Source: a virus
DNA: 64,000 bases
Strand: one strand, 5' to 3'
IMG/VR virus record: IMGVR_UViG_3300021091_000001
Location: 1 to 64,000 of that record
The notes below the pieces were generated by a model. That model saw nothing but the letters and a program-made list of their open reading frames with translations, made no database searches and had not been told where the DNA came from. This document shows, in pieces, positions 5,731 through 53,807 of this stretch. A program made the translations under genes and the position numbers. Within the stretch, counting starts at the first letter, position 1. Each line of letters opens with the position of its first letter.

Positions 5731-6492
5731 TTAAAATATTATCATTTCTCTTGCATCACCATTTGTTTTAAAATGATCTAGCATTGCCTCATGCATAATG
5801 TGAGGTGCATAAATATAACTCGCGCAATACAGTTCTAGACCATTTTTAGCTGCATTCACAGACCATCCCAAGTCCTCGCCTTGTATGTGCAGTTCATAAT
5901 CAACAAGATTATAAGTTTTTTTTGACATCATCTTTGCTGCCATTATGACATCAGATTTAAAATAACTTCCCAGTGGATATTCTTTTGTTCTATGTGCTTT
6001 GTATGAATCTTTATCAAGCCATGTCATTACACTTGGATAATCCACTCCAACAGGAGTCATAAACATTAAAGGATTTACAGCATCTGCGCCGTCATTAATG
6101 TGACTAATTAAAAGTTCTATTGTTGAAGGATTTTTTAAGATAATGTCTGAATCAAGACTGAAATAATAATCTGGTTGTATTTCTCTTACTCGAGAAAGAA
6201 GAGAGTTTCTAAGAGAAACCATGTTCTCATATTTTGAAATACTCCATTGTCTTCCGTTTTCTATATGCTCAAAATGAGGAACGTCTTTTCTTTCTCGAAT
6301 TTCATACAAAGGAATTTCTGGATGAACTTGTCTCCACCTATGTAGCATGGTGGCAGTCTCTTCATCATCTGGACTTGTCTCAAATATAAAACCTATTTTT
6401 GATAAAGGAATTGATTGTCTTTCCAATGCCATTGCCCACAATGGAAAAATCCAACTTCTTTTATAAATAGGACAACCTATTATTAGCTTCAT
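5731..6492 (-). CDS. GT-A-fold glycosyltransferase
   Basis: 253 residues. The N-terminus MKLIIGCPIYKR and the metal-binding DxD motif FSLDSDIIL (D114, D116) fit a family-2-like or related GT-A nucleotide-sugar transferase. A later H-x-H-like segment (YELHIQGEDLGWS) fits the acceptor side. It sits between the portal-side genes and the protease gene. Glycosyltransferases inserted in head modules are common in actinophages and may decorate capsid or other virion proteins with sugar. Donor and acceptor cannot be read from sequence. A 100-base gene-free stretch separates it from the protease start. Confidence 0.7.
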   Translation of the reverse strand: MKLIIGCPIYKRSWIFPLWAMALERQSIPLSKIGFIFETSPDDEETATMLHRWRQVHPEIPLYEIRERKDVPHFEHIENGRQWSISKYENMVSLRNSLLSRVREIQPDYYFSLDSDIILKNPSTIELLISHINDGADAVNPLMFMTPVGVDYPSVMTWLDKDSYKAHRTKEYPLGSYFKSDVIMAAKMMSKKTYNLVDYELHIQGEDLGWSVNAAKNGLELYCASYIYAPHIMHEAMLDHFKTNGDAREMIIF

Positions 6493-35645: not shown

Positions 35646-35695
35646 AACCGCGCATGGACGGCCTCTATGCACTAAGCCACAAGGAGGTGGTAACG

Positions 35696-38062
35696 ATGTT
35701 TCACGGCATCGTAAACAGAGGTGATGGCTGGTTCCGGGTCATTACCTCTCTCAAGCTTCACGGGAAGGATAATGTTCTCGAAGAGTTTGAGGGTGGGCCT
35801 TACTGGCCCGCTTTCTTGGAACACTTCTTCCCTGATCGATACAGGGTTGAAGTCCGCAAGATCCACGGCAAGGGTCTCAACGGAGTGAAATCCGATGACC
35901 CCAAGTCTGCGTTAACACCAATAGCGCAAGAGGTGATCCGTTGGTCTACTGCTACAGACCAGTACAGCCTCCGCATTAAGAATGCCGAAGTTAAGAACAA
36001 TACAACCTGGCTCCATGAGCTTGAGAATATTGGTCTAATCATCGGTAATTCAAAGAAGATGAGCAAGAGGCTTTTGGAGCTTGTTCGTCTATCTTGTGCG
36101 GCAATGTACATTCCCAAGAATGAGCTGAAGGTTGAAGAGATTGATTATATCAGCCTTGGATGCATTGATTCCGATGTCGACGGAATTAGTGCTATTAGCA
36201 TGTCGTTGGCAGTTAGGTGCATCCTGGCCAATCCGATGGCAACGGAAGAATGGGTTCAAGAGCAGATCGAAAACATCTATTCTGGTGAAACTACAGTCGT
36301 TCAGCTTCGTGTGCTGACGCCAAGTGGTTTAATCAAGGGTAATGCTCTTGTTCTACCGGATGGTATGATGAAAGGATTTGATATCAGGACATTTGCTCCT
36401 AACATCAAGTCAGAAATTCGTACTGTTGGGTGGAATTGGATCACAATTGAGCCGTCGCACTCAGTGCTTCCCGTTAAGTCAGACGACTTGACTCACGCAA
36501 TTTATCAGGAAATTGATGGTTTGTATGCCGGAGACAACCTGATAAAGACACTTGAGAACGTCTTGGACAATGCGTTTGAAGACCTCAAGAGTGGCAAGCG
36601 TAGCAGGTGGATGACTAAGCTGGTGGACAGTGCTGAGATTATTGTGCGTTCCGACTCTGGTTTGCAAGAAGATAAGTACAGGACACCAAAGTCAACATTA
36701 AAGATGGTGCAAACAGCCATTGCAAAGTTGGATAAGCTTGGAATCCCCTTCGAGGCAAGTCAGACTCTGAGGTACTTGACTGTAAATGGACTGTCTATGC
36801 AGTTCCTGGGTCGTGAAACTGGTGTGGTTGGTAACGTCTGGAGACAGAAGAACAAGCACTGGATGCCAGTTCAATGGGCCTATAGTGCTCACATTGTGAC
36901 ACAAGAAGTCCTCAAGATCTTTGGTTTCAAGACAACCAAGGGTCATTGGGGTTATTATCATAATAAGACTCGTTGTTTTGTGGTTCCAGGCGATTATTTT
37001 GCCAGGAATTTGGTCAATCATGGTGGACCTGACGAGGACGATATCGTGAAAGTCCATGTCAGGATTGTTGATTTTGCTGACAGGCAGCAATTGATGGCAT
37101 TCATCCTCCGTAATCCGAACGATTTCGGTGAATGGAGCATGATTCCCATCAGAAAGTATGGCCCAGTGTTTCACAATTACACGGAAGTACCTCCTACAAT
37201 CAACTACCAGGAGCTGATAAGTAAAGTTCCTCAGATGACTACGCTGAATGCACAAAATGCAATCACCTACGGTCAACTTCCTGGAACTGCAAACCTTGTC
37301 ATTGGCAAGAAATACAGTCTTGCTGATGAATCTCGTTGCCGGTTGGCTTCAATAAACTTCCCTGGAGGTGTTGGTAGTTCAGTTCTGCCCAAAATGATGT
37401 GGTATGCACTCAATAAGACCTACATTCCCTACTGTATTGCAACGAATGAGGAAATCATCGACGCTCTTCAGCAGGGTCTTGCAACTCCAAGTGACGTTCT
37501 GCTAATCAAGAGCTGGTCAGAAAAGACATTTAGAGACCTGCTTGTCAATCATGGTAAGAATGGAACCAAGATGGACATGTTCTGGATGCAGACTCGTCTT
37601 CCTGACAAGTATGCCAAAGACATTGATGCTACAAGTATTCAGGACTCTCCGTGGTGTCAGCTTCACATTCAGCGAGAAATATTGGTAAGAACTAAGGTAT
37701 CAGCAATGCTTGACTTTATTAATAGTAGCATTGTTATGCCAGAAGTTCTGGTCAATCTTAACTTTACCGAGGAAGAGATTGATACTGCTACTAAGGATGT
37801 CGAGAAGATGTCTACCAAGTGCAGTACGATGTCTACAACCCAATGGGTTGAGTATGTCTGTGGCTTGTTTGATCGCGTGGATCAGAATCCTGAGAAGGGT
37901 ATCGAATACATGAACCGCAAGATCTTGGCTATGGCGTACTGCTCAATTATCAAGAAGCAGAAGTTTGTCAAGGCAAACCATGATCGTTGGCTCTACGCAT
38001 TTAGTTCGAAGAGCCATCGTCAGCCTACAGATTGGCTCATCCGAGCTCTGCAGGCTCTTTAA
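35696..38062 (+). CDS. Giant protein, paralogue of 51234-53807; possible RNA-polymerase-like core
   Basis: 788 residues from ATG 35696 (AAGGAGGTGGTAACG upstream). It shares with the 857-residue protein a LTPSGLIKGNALV block, HGGPDEDDIVKVHV and RNPNDFGEWSMIP. The stretch DEDDIVKVHV...QQLMAFILRNPNDFGEWSMIP recalls the RNA polymerase beta-prime region (DFDGDQMAVHV ... LSPxNGEPIxxP). The acidic triad spacing differs from DxDGD, so this is only a hypothesis. It lies at the end of the cassette array. If it is a polymerase, the boxes could be its promoters. Confidence 0.5.
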   Translation: MFHGIVNRGDGWFRVITSLKLHGKDNVLEEFEGGPYWPAFLEHFFPDRYRVEVRKIHGKGLNGVKSDDPKSALTPIAQEVIRWSTATDQYSLRIKNAEVKNNTTWLHELENIGLIIGNSKKMSKRLLELVRLSCAAMYIPKNELKVEEIDYISLGCIDSDVDGISAISMSLAVRCILANPMATEEWVQEQIENIYSGETTVVQLRVLTPSGLIKGNALVLPDGMMKGFDIRTFAPNIKSEIRTVGWNWITIEPSHSVLPVKSDDLTHAIYQEIDGLYAGDNLIKTLENVLDNAFEDLKSGKRSRWMTKLVDSAEIIVRSDSGLQEDKYRTPKSTLKMVQTAIAKLDKLGIPFEASQTLRYLTVNGLSMQFLGRETGVVGNVWRQKNKHWMPVQWAYSAHIVTQEVLKIFGFKTTKGHWGYYHNKTRCFVVPGDYFARNLVNHGGPDEDDIVKVHVRIVDFADRQQLMAFILRNPNDFGEWSMIPIRKYGPVFHNYTEVPPTINYQELISKVPQMTTLNAQNAITYGQLPGTANLVIGKKYSLADESRCRLASINFPGGVGSSVLPKMMWYALNKTYIPYCIATNEEIIDALQQGLATPSDVLLIKSWSEKTFRDLLVNHGKNGTKMDMFWMQTRLPDKYAKDIDATSIQDSPWCQLHIQREILVRTKVSAMLDFINSSIVMPEVLVNLNFTEEEIDTATKDVEKMSTKCSTMSTTQWVEYVCGLFDRVDQNPEKGIEYMNRKILAMAYCSIIKKQKFVKANHDRWLYAFSSKSHRQPTDWLIRALQAL

Positions 38063-40216: not shown

Positions 40217-41224
40217 ATGTCCACATCCATCCTGAGCAAGTTCAACCTGTCCAGCGACCTGTTCTCTGCAATCGCAGAAAACATCGACGCTCTTCAGTCC
40301 ACTGCTCGGACTCAGTCACTTTCCGTTGGTAAGACGGTTAAGTTCACTGGTTCGATCAACGGCACCGAAGTTCCCGCCGAAGTCACGCTGCGTGAAGCTG
40401 CACTTTCTCGTCTCTCGGTTCTTCGCCAGACCAGCCCGTACTCCGGCAAAGAGTACCTGCTCGTCACTGGTGTCATGAACCCCGTAAAGCTCGATCTCAA
40501 CGTCAACATCAACGGCGAACAGATGAGCATCATCAACCTGCTTCATGTCGCAGCCAAAGATTCTGGCTCGGACATCGACCGTGCAAAGTTTGAGTCCAGC
40601 CTTGTGGCAATGGGCATGAACTTCAGCGGTGGTATGCCCTTGTTCTTCCAGCAATTTGGTGCCAACGAAGACGGTATCAAGCATGCCATCAACGCCTTCA
40701 AGACTGCAGGCGCTGTTGACGTTATGAAGACGATGACAACTCCTGGCCGTATTGTGGCAGCATACCAGCACAAGTCTGGTGTTCCTGTCAGTTCGTTCGA
40801 GCTCGGTACAACCGACCGTAGCAAGAGCCGTACTAGCCAAGGATTCTTGAACCTTGTTGATGCAGCTATTGACACTTTCCAACGCGTCTACAGTCTGCGT
40901 CTTGAGGCTCACGTCCTCACCCAAAAGATTGCAAACCTGCCTCAGGCCAAGGTCAAAGATGCCGAAGCCAAGCGCAAGGAACTCATTGACCTGTCGCGTC
41001 AATGGGTTTCCAACTGGTCTGGTAGCCAGCAGCGCATTCAGGTTGCAAAGAACAATGCTCAGACTCCTCTATCCATCTACGACCCGGTGAATGCCCCTTG
41101 TGGCCGTTTCACTCTCGAAGTGGCTGGAGAGTCGGTGGCTTGCGACCTGTGGTCAAACTCGGCACGTGCTGAGCAGACATCACAGGTAGTCACCGAAGAG
41201 GTCAACGAAGAAGACCCCTTCTGA
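40217..41224 (+). CDS. Probably abundant protein with SSB-like acidic tip
   Basis: 335 residues, no family recognised. Strong AAGGAGAAATATAAA site and heavily C-ending codons suggest high expression. The N-terminal half is beta-rich (KTVKFTGSINGTEVPAEVTLREAAL ... PVKLDLNVNINGEQMSI), the C-terminal half helical. The last residues VVTEEVNEEDPF resemble the acidic DDDIPF tip by which single-stranded-DNA-binding proteins recruit partners. A DNA-binding replication role is inferred from the tip only. Confidence 0.5.
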   Translation: MSTSILSKFNLSSDLFSAIAENIDALQSTARTQSLSVGKTVKFTGSINGTEVPAEVTLREAALSRLSVLRQTSPYSGKEYLLVTGVMNPVKLDLNVNINGEQMSIINLLHVAAKDSGSDIDRAKFESSLVAMGMNFSGGMPLFFQQFGANEDGIKHAINAFKTAGAVDVMKTMTTPGRIVAAYQHKSGVPVSSFELGTTDRSKSRTSQGFLNLVDAAIDTFQRVYSLRLEAHVLTQKIANLPQAKVKDAEAKRKELIDLSRQWVSNWSGSQQRIQVAKNNAQTPLSIYDPVNAPCGRFTLEVAGESVACDLWSNSARAEQTSQVVTEEVNEEDPF

Positions 41225-41976
41225 GTTAATGTCGTGGTGGGAGTTCAGGTTTCGTGATTGTGCCTGAACTCCCATCACACCGCATCGGTAGGTTACATCT
41301 CATCAATGCATTCAGCACGCTTTTTGACGTAGGCAATGCATCTTGAGAACAAGCGGTTCGATTCTGCTTCGATGCGCCGAGTATCCTGGATAAGACCAAG
41401 AACATGGCACTTATAACCATGTAACGATGCGGGTTATGTCCCGTAAGTTGTCGTGTGATTAAGATTGGCCTCACCGATCTTAGTCTACCTGTGAGGCAGG
41501 TAGTCCAGGGGAAAGTCTAAGTTGTTAGTCATCTCACAAATAGCATGAGTGTCTGGGGAGATCCCAGAACAGCTGTCCTTCAGCCGATGAAACACTATTT
41601 GTAAAAACTAACTGCAATACACAACTAGCTAATAGCCTGTAGCTTTGACTTGTGTATAAGATTTTGGCTTATACGGTAGATAACTGTAAACCCGTAATAT
41701 AGGAAACTATATTAATCCGATAATACATACGAGGGTTCTTACAAGTAGTATATATTGTCCAGTTAGATCTTTTTGTAGAAGATTGCGTGTATAACGCGTC
41801 TTAAACGACACTGTGGTGTGCCCTATAATACGTCCATGGTCGCAAGACGTTAAAATGCGTAACCTTGGCCTTTGGTACGAGGGTGACATTAGTGTCAGTG
41901 TCTGGTATATGCACAAACAGCGTCGTATCAATATACCATTAAGATCTTTTTAAAAAGTTCATACAAAGGAGAAAAC
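41225..41976 (+). ncRNA. Gene-free region rich in RNA structure, candidate large structured RNA
   Basis: 752 bases with no credible ORF. Paired elements in order: 16-bp stem 41234-41249/41263-41278; a tRNA-like acceptor and T-arm 41282-41376; hairpins 41460-41482 and 41485-41503 whose loops (CCTCA and TGAGG) are complementary, a possible kissing pair; 41524-41612, an outer stem (GTTAGT/ACTAAC, ACAAATAG/CTATTTGT) enclosing hairpins CTGGG/CCCAG and GCTG/CAGC; GTATAAG/CTTATAC near 41655; ATATAG-GAAA-CTATAT near 41697; ACGTC/GACGT, TGACA/TGTCA and GGTATAT/ATATACC to 41940. Size and ornate fold recall GOLLD/ROOL-type phage RNAs. Confidence 0.5.
41282..41376 (+). ncRNA. tRNA-like element in the structured region
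   Basis: GCATCGG (41282-41288) pairs with TCGATGC (41369-41375). A T-arm AGCGG-TTCGATT-CTGCT sits just inside. The middle is a 7-bp stem ATGCATT/AATGCAT with a 22-base loop rather than a normal anticodon arm, and no D-arm is evident. No CCA encoded. Not a working tRNA by this reading. Confidence 0.4.
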
Positions 41977-42216
41977 ATGCCAATCACCGAAGAAACCATC
42001 AACGAATACGTCTACAGCAGTGAACAAATGATTGAAAGTCAACGGCAAATGATCGAAAAACTCAAAGAAGCCATTGAACTCAAAAACAAACTGTACAATA
42101 CTGCCATCGAATACGCTCAACTCATCTACAAAGGTCTACAATCAACCAATTCCGAGACCAAAGCCAATGCCATGTGGCACCTAGCCAATCTCGCTCAACA
42201 TGAGGAGACAAAATGA
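41977..42216 (+). CDS. Coiled-coil protein
   Basis: 79 residues, long amphipathic helix (SSEQMIESQRQMIEKLKEAIELKNKLYNTAIEYAQLIYKGLQS). AAAGGAGAAAAC precedes ATG. The stop overlaps the next gene (ATGA). Probably an oligomerising adaptor. Unknown. Confidence 0.5.
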   Translation: MPITEETINEYVYSSEQMIESQRQMIEKLKEAIELKNKLYNTAIEYAQLIYKGLQSTNSETKANAMWHLANLAQHEETK

Positions 42217-42443
42217 GGCAACCAATACTTCCATGTATTGTATGCAACAAAAAAATGAATTACCTATGGCCAGAAGAAGAACTAACCAACGTAGATGATG
42301 GAGTTGACTTCTACATGACTGGCTGCTACGGATCCAAATTCGACCTACAGGAATTTACAGCTATCCTCTGCGATACCTGTCTAGAGACTGCCTACAATAA
42401 AGGACATGTAAGGTTCGTTAAAGAATATGACATACTATTCTAA
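42213..42443 (+). CDS. Zinc-ribbon protein, GYGS/LCDxCL family
   Basis: 76 residues. CIVC near residue 8 and CDTC near residue 52, separated by CYGSKFDLQEFTAIL. Clear relative of 31331-31681. It overlaps the previous gene by four bases and is followed by a strong terminator. Function unknown. Confidence 0.6.
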   Translation: MRQPILPCIVCNKKMNYLWPEEELTNVDDGVDFYMTGCYGSKFDLQEFTAILCDTCLETAYNKGHVRFVKEYDILF

Positions 42444-42449
42444 TGTACT

Positions 42450-42497
42450 TACCAGTGTATATGGCTTAGGCTGTATACACTGGTAAATATTTTTTTC
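42450..42497 (+). terminator. Strong intrinsic terminator
   Basis: 13-bp stem TTACCAGTGTATA/TATACACTGGTAA (42450-42462, 42475-42487) followed by ATATTTTTTT. Confidence 0.8.
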
Positions 42498-45390: not shown

Positions 45391-45497
45391 TTTACTTTAA
45401 TATTGTTGACCAAAACTTTGTATTATTTTAATTTAAAGTTACTATTTATAGAACGTAATTAGATTATTACGAAGCGCAGGAGTACAATGTCTTAATG

Positions 45498-45575
45498 TAG
45501 ATGTGTCCCCGAGCGACTGCCCGAAGGGCAGAAGCCGGGGACATACCATCTTGTAAGAGATGTATTCCTTTTTCC
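45498..45575 (+). ncRNA. Strong two-stem RNA hairpin element
   Basis: Stem TGTCCCCG/CGGGGACA (45504-45511, 45536-45543), an internal loop AGCGA/AAGC, then CTGCCC-GAA-GGGCAG (45517-45531). An outer AGATG/CATCT extends it. A second hairpin and TTCCTTTTTCC follow. GC-rich island in AT-rich DNA. Could be a small RNA with terminator or a structured leader of the next gene. Confidence 0.5.
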
Positions 45576-45602
45576 ATTTTATGTTAGCCTTTGGAGGTTG
45601 TC

Positions 45603-50417: not shown

Positions 50418-50538
50418 GGAAGCGTATTCAGGAGTTTACAAAGACTCTCATTACACCTTTGGTGCTGTAAAGTTGGTGCTTTTTCACAAATGAGATCAAG
50501 TTTTTGTAAAGTGAGTTCGACTCTCACCGCTTCCACCA
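50418..50538 (+). ncRNA. Short tmRNA-like RNA (tRNA-like domain without tag region)
   Basis: 121 bases. Acceptor GGAAGCG (50418-50424) pairs with CGCTTCC (50528-50534), then A and an encoded CCA (50536-50538). T-arm GTGAG-TTCGACT-CTCAC. The 5' part TATTCAGGAGTTTAC resembles the conserved tmRNA 5' segment (ATTCTGGATTCGAC). A long helix TTTACAAA/TTTGTAAA replaces the anticodon arm and leads to TCTCATT/AATGAGA. There is no D-arm, no anticodon loop and no room for a tag ORF. Confidence 0.5.
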
Positions 50539-51233: not shown

Positions 51234-53807
51234 ATGAACTTTAGCACTTACCGTCCGGACGTTCGGCTCAAAGCATTTAAGGATGCTCCGCTTCGTTCCA
51301 AGGATAATTATCAGATTGGCTTTTATGACATTGGCGTTTTGCGTCAACTTATGAACAGCTCTGATGCAAATGAATTTCGTGTAGCAGCATTGCCCATTCC
51401 TCAAAACGTCTTTGACCGTGCGGAACTAGAAAAAATTGTTCGTCACCCTTCTGTGCAGTACGCGCTTGTTGACAAAACGAAGATTGTTCTTTGTTCTATT
51501 AAGGGTTGTAACGGATGGCTTGGTGCAATCAATGAAGCTGGTTTTAAAGTAAAAGGTGGTGGAAAGACAGCGAAGCGATTGAAGTCATTTCACCGCGCTT
51601 CGCTAATTAACGCTCATTACGACCACCTTCGTATTCAATGGGTTGAACCGACAGCTTACACCCGTTATGACTTTGAAAATGGCGATTGGTCCCCTTGGGT
51701 CAAAGAAGCCACTTCTCGTTTGCTTGATGGCGGTTTTGTTATTTCATCCCGTTTGATTCACAAAGCTCTTGCCGACCAGCCACTGTATTATACAAACAAT
51801 GAGACTTTGGATCCTAATGACGTTTATTATGATCCAGAGATTCGCCGTAAGCTTCGTGCTTTTCTTGTTGCTTCAAAGGTTTTCAACGGACGCATTTTCA
51901 CTCCAGAAGGTGTAATCAAGGGCAATTTTATTGTTTCTGATAATCTTCCTGAGTATGTGGACGTTATTACCTCTCGTGAGAATCTCAAGAAAGAAATCGA
52001 ATATCATAATGGCTATCGACTCATTGCAGAGCCTCAAGGTCCCAAGACATCTGTTATTACAGATGACCAAACTGTTATCAATCTTCCTAAGTTGTTTCGC
52101 AAGAGCGACTTGGAATTCTGGCTAAAAGAACAATATGAAATCATGTTTGAAGATGCTAAAAATGATCGTCTTCTACAGGATTGGAAATTTGTTTTTGTTC
52201 GCCAGTTTTCAAAAGCTGATAACTATGGATCAAAGAAGAAGGAACAAACTCCTGCAGATTTGGAAGCCCAGACTCGCGTTAACTACGTAGGTTATCGTTG
52301 GAAGAGCATGGGTCTTTCAATTACTGATTCGCCGTGGTTGTTTAAGACCTTGGCAATTTCTCATGCACGTCCGCTTGAGAATCGTATTCCGATTCCTTGC
52401 AGTGTGTATGAGCAGATTATTCCTGAATCTTTGGCTCGTATGGCAGGGTTTGATATCATTGTCGAAGAGGGTACCATTCGCAGAATCAATTCTGTTGGTA
52501 TTCATGTGGTCAACGATTTCGATTGGCTTGAGATGTACGAGTCGCACGGCGGTCACGATCAGGACGACTTCTTTAAGTTGTTTTATCGTACCATGAAATC
52601 CGGATCCAAAGACGGAAAGAAAGTTGTTATAGTCGCTCGTAGCCCAAATGGTTATGGCGAGTATTCAATATTTGATTACGTTGAAGGTGAATGGTATCCT
52701 AAATGGAAGAAGTCTGATGGAGAAGTTGTAACTTTTCCTGAAGTCAATGGCCGTAACTGGCCAGTACGTCTTTCTGATGCAATTCGCGCACGTAAGGTTC
52801 GTTACGTTGGTCTTCCCAGCGATAACAATCCTTCTCCCAAGCCTTCTGAAGGAGAACAGTACTCTGTTGAAGACTTTATGTCTGATGTTGACACTGCTAT
52901 GAACGGTGGAAACGTTGGTCGTTTTGTTAACTCTTCTATGCTCCATTCTAATTCATTAGCCAAGCATCGCCCAGTTCAGGTTTGTTCTCTCGAGTCAGCC
53001 ATCGATGGTTGCACTCAAACATCAAACCCACTGGATCGCACAGCTATTGATGCAGAAGCAGAAATAATTCTTCAAGAAGTCATTGATTCTGGTGCTAAGG
53101 TTGATCACGACCTTTGGTATGGTCGCTTTGCAAACTTTGCCAAAAAGCATCCTGAAGTCGAGACGTATGAAGGAACTCTTACACATATGAATAATTTGTG
53201 CAAGACTTACTTTAACAAGTATGTTGATCGGGTCACTAAGTATTCTCAAACAGAGATTGCAATTGCTGATCCAATCAACAAACTTGCTAACCGTTTGCGT
53301 TTTCATGCACTTCCTACATTTCGCAGATTCAACATGAGTATTTATAATACCAACTCTGGCGAATTTGCTCAAAGCTCTGGAACTATTTCTCGAGAAGAAT
53401 GGGATTACATTTACGGAAACGTCGTCAAAGACATTGAATCATTTGTACGAATTGAAGATCGTCACGATTTCGTGATTGCTCTTTATGCAGTTTGTATGAC
53501 TGAGAAGAATGGTTCTGGTCGTGTTTCTGATCAGATTATGATGAATCCGGTTATCTATCCATATCTTGAGCGTGCTCTTATTCACTATGGTATTGCTAGC
53601 CGAGTTCTTATGACCTTCAACAATGGCAAATACGCAGCCGAACAAACTAAGTATGATAAGTGGACTCATATTGATCCCGACGGTAGTCAGCACTCGTTTA
53701 CTGATGTGTTTGAATATCAAGATCATCATGCGCAGTTTTCGCCTATCGTATTTACAAACGTTGATTCTGCTGTAAAGCGTGAGCGTAGAACTGAATCACA
53801 ATTTTAG
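51234..53807 (+). CDS. Giant protein, paralogue of 35696-38062; possible RNA-polymerase-like core
   Basis: 857 residues, AAAGGAGGACT before ATG. Shared blocks with the 788-residue protein: FTPEGVIKGNFIVSD, SHGGHDQDDFFKLFYR and VARSPNGYGEYSIF. The conserved HGGxDxDD acidic loop followed by RxPNxxGEx(S) recalls the second double-psi barrel of RNA polymerase beta-prime, with altered Asp spacing. The C-terminal third is helical. Codons are more AT-rich than the 35.7 kb copy, so the two copies diverged long ago or came separately. Function remains unproven. Confidence 0.5.
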   Translation: MNFSTYRPDVRLKAFKDAPLRSKDNYQIGFYDIGVLRQLMNSSDANEFRVAALPIPQNVFDRAELEKIVRHPSVQYALVDKTKIVLCSIKGCNGWLGAINEAGFKVKGGGKTAKRLKSFHRASLINAHYDHLRIQWVEPTAYTRYDFENGDWSPWVKEATSRLLDGGFVISSRLIHKALADQPLYYTNNETLDPNDVYYDPEIRRKLRAFLVASKVFNGRIFTPEGVIKGNFIVSDNLPEYVDVITSRENLKKEIEYHNGYRLIAEPQGPKTSVITDDQTVINLPKLFRKSDLEFWLKEQYEIMFEDAKNDRLLQDWKFVFVRQFSKADNYGSKKKEQTPADLEAQTRVNYVGYRWKSMGLSITDSPWLFKTLAISHARPLENRIPIPCSVYEQIIPESLARMAGFDIIVEEGTIRRINSVGIHVVNDFDWLEMYESHGGHDQDDFFKLFYRTMKSGSKDGKKVVIVARSPNGYGEYSIFDYVEGEWYPKWKKSDGEVVTFPEVNGRNWPVRLSDAIRARKVRYVGLPSDNNPSPKPSEGEQYSVEDFMSDVDTAMNGGNVGRFVNSSMLHSNSLAKHRPVQVCSLESAIDGCTQTSNPLDRTAIDAEAEIILQEVIDSGAKVDHDLWYGRFANFAKKHPEVETYEGTLTHMNNLCKTYFNKYVDRVTKYSQTEIAIADPINKLANRLRFHALPTFRRFNMSIYNTNSGEFAQSSGTISREEWDYIYGNVVKDIESFVRIEDRHDFVIALYAVCMTEKNGSGRVSDQIMMNPVIYPYLERALIHYGIASRVLMTFNNGKYAAEQTKYDKWTHIDPDGSQHSFTDVFEYQDHHAQFSPIVFTNVDSAVKRERRTESQF

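Follow-up and report, generated by a model that had tools for sequence, protein, structure and literature searches.

The locus considered here raises the question of whether a long gene-free spacer in a phage genome encodes one large RNA or several smaller ones. The window, i.e. the whole stretch of 64,000 nucleotides that was analysed, belongs to the record of an uncultivated phage. A first-pass annotation had described the spacer as a single ornate RNA candidate of about 700 nt, denser in structure than ordinary spacers of the window and similar to the GOLLD and ROOL classes. The reading favoured here, and considered reasonably probable, is that the coding strand carries an array of discrete structured RNA modules, at least five in number, which are transcribed together and processed, in place of one RNA of the GOLLD or ROOL kind. 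The features of the locus are listed in Table 1.

Table 1. Positions of the genes, RNA modules and hairpins in and around the spacer (window coordinates).
Feature	Position	Strand	Description
335-aa gene	40217-41224	+	directly 5' of the spacer
Spacer between genes	41225-41976	+	752 bases, gene-free, in an uncultivated phage record of 202 kb
Long hairpin	41234-41278	+	about 16-17 bp, immediately 3' of the stop codon of the 335-aa gene; MFE -32 kcal/mol
Anticodon-less tRNA-like domain (TLD)	41282-41376	+	from descriptor, fold and relatives at the same position
Module E	41378-41520	+	CCUGGA/UCCAGG stem around hairpins; terminates in GGGAAAGUCU
Module C	41534-41604	+	three-way junction
Hairpin region	41612-41765	+	hairpins predicted from the fold, including a GAAA tetraloop hairpin (41696-41713)
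Module A	41771-41831	+	three-way junction
Hairpin 5' of module B	41830-41864	+	hairpin 41830-41850; GUAACC-like segment 41859-41864
Module B	41871-41939	+	P1 41873-41880/41923-41930; hairpin P2 GUGU/GCAC (41898-41914); pseudoknot
79-aa gene	41977-42216	+	first gene 3' of the spacer
76-aa gene	42213-42443	+	after the 79-aa gene
Terminator-like hairpin with T-run	42449-42486		3' of the 76-aa gene

The spacer is gene-free, as claimed initially: its same-strand ORFs comprise at most 46 aa, and the two ORFs on the antisense strand, of 82 and 74 aa, were called mechanically. The long hairpin and the GAAA tetraloop hairpin were both recovered in its fold. Compared with 20 dinucleotide shuffles per strand, the fold of the whole spacer lies 6.1 standard deviations lower on the + strand and 10.8 lower on the - strand. 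The claim of an exceptional density of structure did not hold. A sliding 200-nt scan put the spacer at about z = -2 on average; the mean over the window was -1.4 (sd 1.8), and more extreme values were reached by several other regions. The spacer would not stand out by single-sequence folding alone. Since it is unexceptional in the scan, folding energy cannot carry the case, and comparison has to do so. Positions 45401-45600 have the lowest local z value of the window (-9.2) and cover a GC-rich hairpin (45495-45555) in a spacer 5' of the gene at 45591.

Known RNA families were searched with all 4227 models of Rfam 15 by cmscan, with the threshold relaxed to E <= 5 for the spacer. The spacer yielded merely short sub-threshold matches of miRNA and plastid type. 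Rfam placed four ordinary tRNAs in the window, all outside the spacer, and ARAGORN reported neither a tRNA nor a tmRNA within it. GOLLD (RF02032) and ROOL (RF03087) were matched neither in the window, nor in the spacer at E <= 5, nor in the loci of 24 relatives. Because Rfam and ARAGORN give nothing of the sort in the spacer, the proposed likeness to GOLLD and ROOL is unsupported; membership of the window sequence in GOLLD, ROOL or tmRNA was rejected on the Rfam result. Among 50,697 deposited phage genomes (INPHARED), blastn found no relative of the whole spacer. The modules are described neither in Rfam 15 nor in titles or abstracts of open-access papers found by keyword search (phage structured RNAs, GOLLD/ROOL, phage tmRNA, phage exonuclease-resistant RNAs), and a search of the same kind for the core sequence of module C returned unrelated papers alone. 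The term previously undescribed is used here in this sense, i.e. for RNAs absent from Rfam 15 and not surfaced by open-access title and abstract keyword search.

Relatives of the spacer were found via its upstream gene. The family of the 335-aa gene comprised 12 and then 33 viral loci in IMG/VR, and it stands 5' of RNA-module spacers in many uncultivated phages. In the non-redundant set, the spacers 3' of this gene measure about 80 to 750 nt and vary in content, with parts in common. Searches of PHROG and Pfam gave no family for the 335-aa protein at E <= 0.001, and its AlphaFold model (pLDDT 76) matched no PDB fold in Foldseek at E <= 0.001. The C-terminus of the protein family carries acidic residues with DPF/KPF and was likened to the tail of single-stranded-DNA-binding proteins. 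Two further proteins of the window, of 802 and 857 aa (35654-38062 and 51234-53807), match each other weakly (E 5e-10). Neither has a PHROG match, the 802-aa protein has no Pfam match either, and both contain the motif HGG.D.DD..K, which on inspection by eye looks like that of two-barrel polymerases.

By this comparison the spacer splits into at least five modules (TLD, E, C, A and B) that recur separately and reordered in other phages. Module orders were read from printed spacers, motif matches and model searches. The order TLD-E-C-A-B of the window is replaced by A-(B-like)-TLD-E in L032 and L037, by TLD-A in L007, L025 and L039, by (B-like twice)-TLD-C-(B-like) in L045, by B-B-TLD in L060 and by A-(B-like)-B in L058. 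In model searches of 33 phage records, no record had more than one or two copies each of A, B and C; in the window's phage each occurs once, within this spacer only. The single RNA of about 700 nt proposed at first is thus not upheld: since the modules occur apart and reordered, the parts are separable cassettes and not one RNA. A GC-rich hairpin at the position of the long hairpin was seen by eye in the spacers of L047, L048 and L051, while no relative was found for the hairpin region between modules C and A.

The structural part of the earlier claim, that the phage has an ornate region of structured RNA, was borne out by covariation of modules C, B and A and by the kissing loop of module E. 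The first-pass annotation had suggested looking for covariation in related phages and had named a lack of both Rfam-like matches and covariation as evidence against its candidate. The spacer indeed lacks a Rfam match, but covariation is strong. In the alignments it is strong in modules C and B and of moderate strength in A; the counts are uncorrected for phylogeny, and slid-partner controls scored far lower.

Module C corresponds to the multibranched domain noticed in the first pass. Its elements are ordered P1, GCAUG, GUGU, P2 with a GAGAU loop, AAC, P3, AUGAA, ACAC and P1'. In an unguided alignment of 32 sequences, 92.4% of cells were paired and P1, P2 and P3 were supported, with a covariation score of 0.772 against 0.189 for shuffled and at most 0.155 for slid partners, and with changes on both sides in 209 cells. 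This covariation speaks to P1, P2 and P3, the GUGU/ACAC helix being invariant. Another 24 sequences outside the alignment, partly from contigs related to the aligned ones and so not fully independent, were paired at 171 of 192 cells in P1 (shuffle maximum 102) and at 72 of 72 in P2, the latter in 11 sequence variants. The match of the C model in the 202-kb record has an E of 3e-15. Among the matches listed, the outer P2 pairs can be closed in 79 of 81 distinct 5'-half contexts, and contexts without exact AUGAAACAC mostly hold a close variant, e.g. UGAAACAC or GAAACAAA.

Module C is a common conserved RNA without an Rfam family. The full pattern occurs in 35 contigs, and matching the 5' half alone brought the number of uncultivated viral contigs to at least 120. 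Module C is also present in five bacterial assemblies, with the labels Acidobacteria, Actinomycetes, Verrucomicrobia and Planctomycetes; a few kilobases from the copy in Terriglobus albidus is an ORF that by eye looks like a phage-type tyrosine recombinase, an apparent integrase. Consensus queries against the 50,697 deposited phage genomes returned no convincing copy, with short partial matches at E 2-9, and six C-containing loci searched against Rfam 15 at E <= 2 gave no family overlapping C. With crude mechanical ORF calls and related phages counted separately, C shares the strand of the upstream ORF in 59 cases and opposes it in 16, the downstream counts being 59 and 17. Of 83 C loci, 10 have a tRNA gene at a distance of up to 300 nt, each time on the same strand, against about 2 expected by position; the other 73 lie away from tRNA genes. 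A sub-threshold match to YrlA (Y RNA-like) was noted at L088:512-644, in a phage tRNA cluster that holds C.

Module A consists of P1, a P2 hairpin with a bulged U and a GUAUA loop, a UUAAACG joining segment and P3 CAC-UGUG-GUG. The pattern was found in 18 viral contigs, and no match was obtained in INPHARED. In ten sequences, 93.9% of cells were paired and the covariation score was 0.300 (0.117 shuffled). The model match in the 202-kb record is a single copy (E 2e-19). This copy contains two A x C mismatches in P1, which suggest that it may be decaying or drifting. Module A is found in the spacer of the 335-aa gene or near tRNA genes: in 7 of 13 loci a tRNA gene is at most 300 nt away, and all seven copies are on the tRNA strand. 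A and/or C stand between tRNA-Arg(UCU) and tRNA-Asn(GUU) in L027, L028, L040 and L093. Pistol ribozymes (Rfam RF02679) were identified some kilobases from arrays, at L012:4376-4442, L039:1171-1238 and L040:6052-6115.

In module B, the loop segment GGUAUAU of P2 pairs with AUAUACC (41931-41937), directly 3' of P1, forming the pseudoknot P3. Over P1, P2 and P3, all 227 of 227 cells in 12 sequences are in standard pairs. Double changes were counted at 10 pairs, some in each helix, and the covariation score was 0.353 (0.160 shuffled). Among the conserved pairs, many are G-U when read on the + strand; this argues for a + strand RNA and against DNA or an antisense RNA. The model matched a single copy in the 202-kb record (E 7e-16), the pattern occurs in about nine phages besides three matches in coding regions, and the INPHARED query gave short partial matches alone (E 2-9). 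With a three-helix descriptor, additional divergent copies were recovered, among them a related form in L004, L032 and L054, and tandem B or B-like units exist in L060 and L045. A B-related form, the D motif, was noted in L032 and L037 (in both after A), L045 and L054; its first P1 strand lies within a hairpin loop, so that two hairpin loops pair with one 3' tail. The hairpin 5' of module B has a loop that can pair with the GUAACC-like segment in several relatives, imperfectly in the window. Despite stem and loop variants, this pairing is merely suggestive, because 209 of 1300 shuffles (16%) score similarly.

Module E contains the two hairpins with complementary loops reported at first (41457-41485 and 41485-41503). 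The complementarity was confirmed; the length was not, the loops of the window pairing over 7 nt instead of 5. The kissing loop of 6-7 bp is formed by GCCUCAC/GUGAGGC in the window, GCUUCAC/GUGAAGC in L032, CUUCAC/GUGAAG in L037 and CUGUCA/UGACAG in L056. The loops are perfectly complementary in four of four phages with three different loop sequences, and a comparable loop pair arose in 1 of 2000 shuffles. The same loop-pair descriptor has one further match in the window (34763). In all four phages module E lies directly 3' of the TLD, whose sequence there is CCGAGUAY; the pattern of the E end was found in no other phage of IMG/VR. The kissing loop is the best-supported tertiary contact of the array.

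For these elements the comparisons show conserved base pairing, modularity, placement and orientation. A mechanism can be proposed by analogy. The array would be transcribed together with the 335-aa gene upstream and the two small genes downstream; on the + strand, neither a promoter nor a terminator was located within the spacer, and the terminator-like hairpin with T-run follows the small genes. The TLD may be recognised by tRNA-processing enzymes (RNase P, a 3' maturase), and the transcript would be cut there. The three-way-junction and pseudoknot modules would then persist as small non-coding RNAs or shield the new RNA ends. Release would probably proceed as for RNAs of phage tRNA operons, where non-tRNA stable RNAs also occur; RNAs C and D of phage T4 are such stable products of a tRNA operon. 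The analogy draws on the same-strand tRNA genes near loci of A and C and fits module A best. Because 73 of the 83 C loci lie away from tRNA genes, tRNA-like processing cannot be general for C. The A3-U70 pair and the missing CCA end of the window's TLD, together with the P1 mismatches of its copy of A, likewise count against this reading.

The modules could instead be cis-acting elements of mRNA untranslated regions, located in the 3' UTR of the 335-aa gene or in the leader of the 79-aa gene and controlling translation, decay or termination. This explanation is rather unlikely but has several observations in its favour. The modules lie within an apparent operon closed by the terminator-like hairpin. 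Module B ends about 40 nt 5' of a start codon and is located near start codons also in L006, L010, L018 and L022, while C follows a stop codon within 60 nt in 22 of the 59 same-strand cases. However, copies of A and C lie between tRNA genes too, where there is no mRNA to control, the genes 3' of the array vary among phages, and no alternative fold resembling an expression platform was identified. The sequence TTCATACAAA is exact in the window at 6301, 41958, 49485 and 50557 on the + strand and at 5998 on the - strand. It recurs 5' of start codons in the window and in spacers of relatives, often following a T-run. With one mismatch, 20 sites were counted against 11.6 expected, and it is possibly a promoter or ribosome-binding context.

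The tRNA-like acceptor with T-arm seen in the first pass is present as the TLD, as judged from the fold and from a descriptor that gave 2 matches in 20 shuffles of the whole window. Its acceptor is GCAUCGG/UCGAUGC and its T-arm AGCGG-UUCGAUU-CUGCU; the domain runs on into CCGA, read as GCCGA directly after the acceptor strand. About 10 unpaired nucleotides replace the D-arm, and a single long central helix is present. No Rfam model, RF00023 included, matches the TLD of the window, and the 202-kb record gave just one weak match to the tmRNA model, on an annotated tRNA. The Rfam tmRNA cut-off of 47 bits is passed at the same position by L039 (54.6 bits), L007 and L025 (47.3 bits each), in elements of 73-78 nt without a tag frame. 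Below the cut-off, the model also matches control genomes, including archaea without tmRNA; such matches were therefore dropped, and the three strong ones count. A tag-peptide reading frame is not to be found, as domains of 73-120 nt leave no space for it. ARAGORN reported no tmRNA.

These elements could be decoys of trans-translation, i.e. tmRNA relics without a tag frame that occupy the host's SmpB, alanyl-tRNA synthetase or EF-Tu. The idea is improbable. It draws on the three matches above the cut-off and on a G3-U70 pair seen by eye in L007, L039, L060, L062 and L072. A search for SmpB in the 33 phage records found no gene, so a partner would have to come from the host. Against it, the TLD of the window has A3-U70 instead of the alanine-specific G3-U70 of tmRNA, and it lacks a CCA end as well as an Rfam match. 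A second anticodon-less tRNA-like domain was noted on the + strand at 50418-50535, with an ACCA end, a long central hairpin, acceptor GGAAGCG/CGCUUCC and T-arm GUGAG-UUCGACU-CUCAC; it is reported by neither ARAGORN nor Rfam. A 271-nt match to the tmRNA model at L124:1501-1771 (phage record G021; 31.7 bits, below the cut-off) is possibly a longer phage tmRNA.

One large ornate RNA of the GOLLD or ROOL kind, as a unit of about 700 nt or a multimer, would agree with the size, the phage setting, the kissing loop, the pseudoknots and the low energy of the whole-spacer fold (z -6.1), but the missing Rfam match and the solitary and reordered modules of other phages disfavour it and make it quite improbable. 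Elements acting as DNA, such as hairpins for replication origin, recombination or packaging, are highly improbable: the inverted repeats do adjoin a gene whose product may carry an SSB-like acidic DPF tail, but G-U pairs are frequent and on one strand only, loop sequences are conserved, pseudoknot and kissing interactions are present, and the modules share the strand of genes and tRNAs.

In a wider and tentative interpretation, which has perhaps a modest chance of being correct, A, B, C, E and the ORF-less TLD might be previously undescribed RNA classes of phages, exchanged as cassettes between the locus of one protein gene and tRNA arrays. Module C might represent a widespread class of viral RNA whose phages come from several bacterial phyla, and B might be the phage equivalent of the exonuclease-resistant RNAs (xrRNAs). 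The array shows cassette exchange in the evolution of phage RNA structures. Module C is directly testable, being short, well supported in its consensus fold and accessible to in vitro synthesis. Module B, a loop-to-flank pseudoknot, is open to nuclease-resistance tests in bacteria.

Among known systems, tmRNA (RF00023) resembles the TLD in its acceptor, an unpaired D-loop of about 10 nt, a long helix in place of the anticodon arm and a T-arm. The TLD differs by its length (about 75-120 nt against about 350 for tmRNA), and neither a tag reading frame nor a resume codon nor the full set of pseudoknots was found. GOLLD and ROOL are reported to form homo-oligomeric cages (PMC12286853). The spacer shares with them a large ornate non-coding phage region, pseudoknots, a kissing loop and, in many relatives, tRNA genes nearby; it differs in giving no useful Rfam score and in being an array of separable, reordered modules without one conserved large fold. 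The xrRNAs of plant viruses and flaviviruses are similar to module B in topology alone, as the loop of a hairpin pairs with bases immediately 3' of the stem that encloses it; tandem B-like units also exist (L060, L045). The comparison is one of pairing topology, and no Rfam match was obtained. Bacteria are not known to have Xrn1, and RNase J would be the analogue. The stable RNAs of phage tRNA operons (e.g. T4 RNAs C and D) and the modules are alike in being small, structured and placed on the same strand between tRNA genes; the modules differ in that they stand also away from tRNA genes and in other phages.
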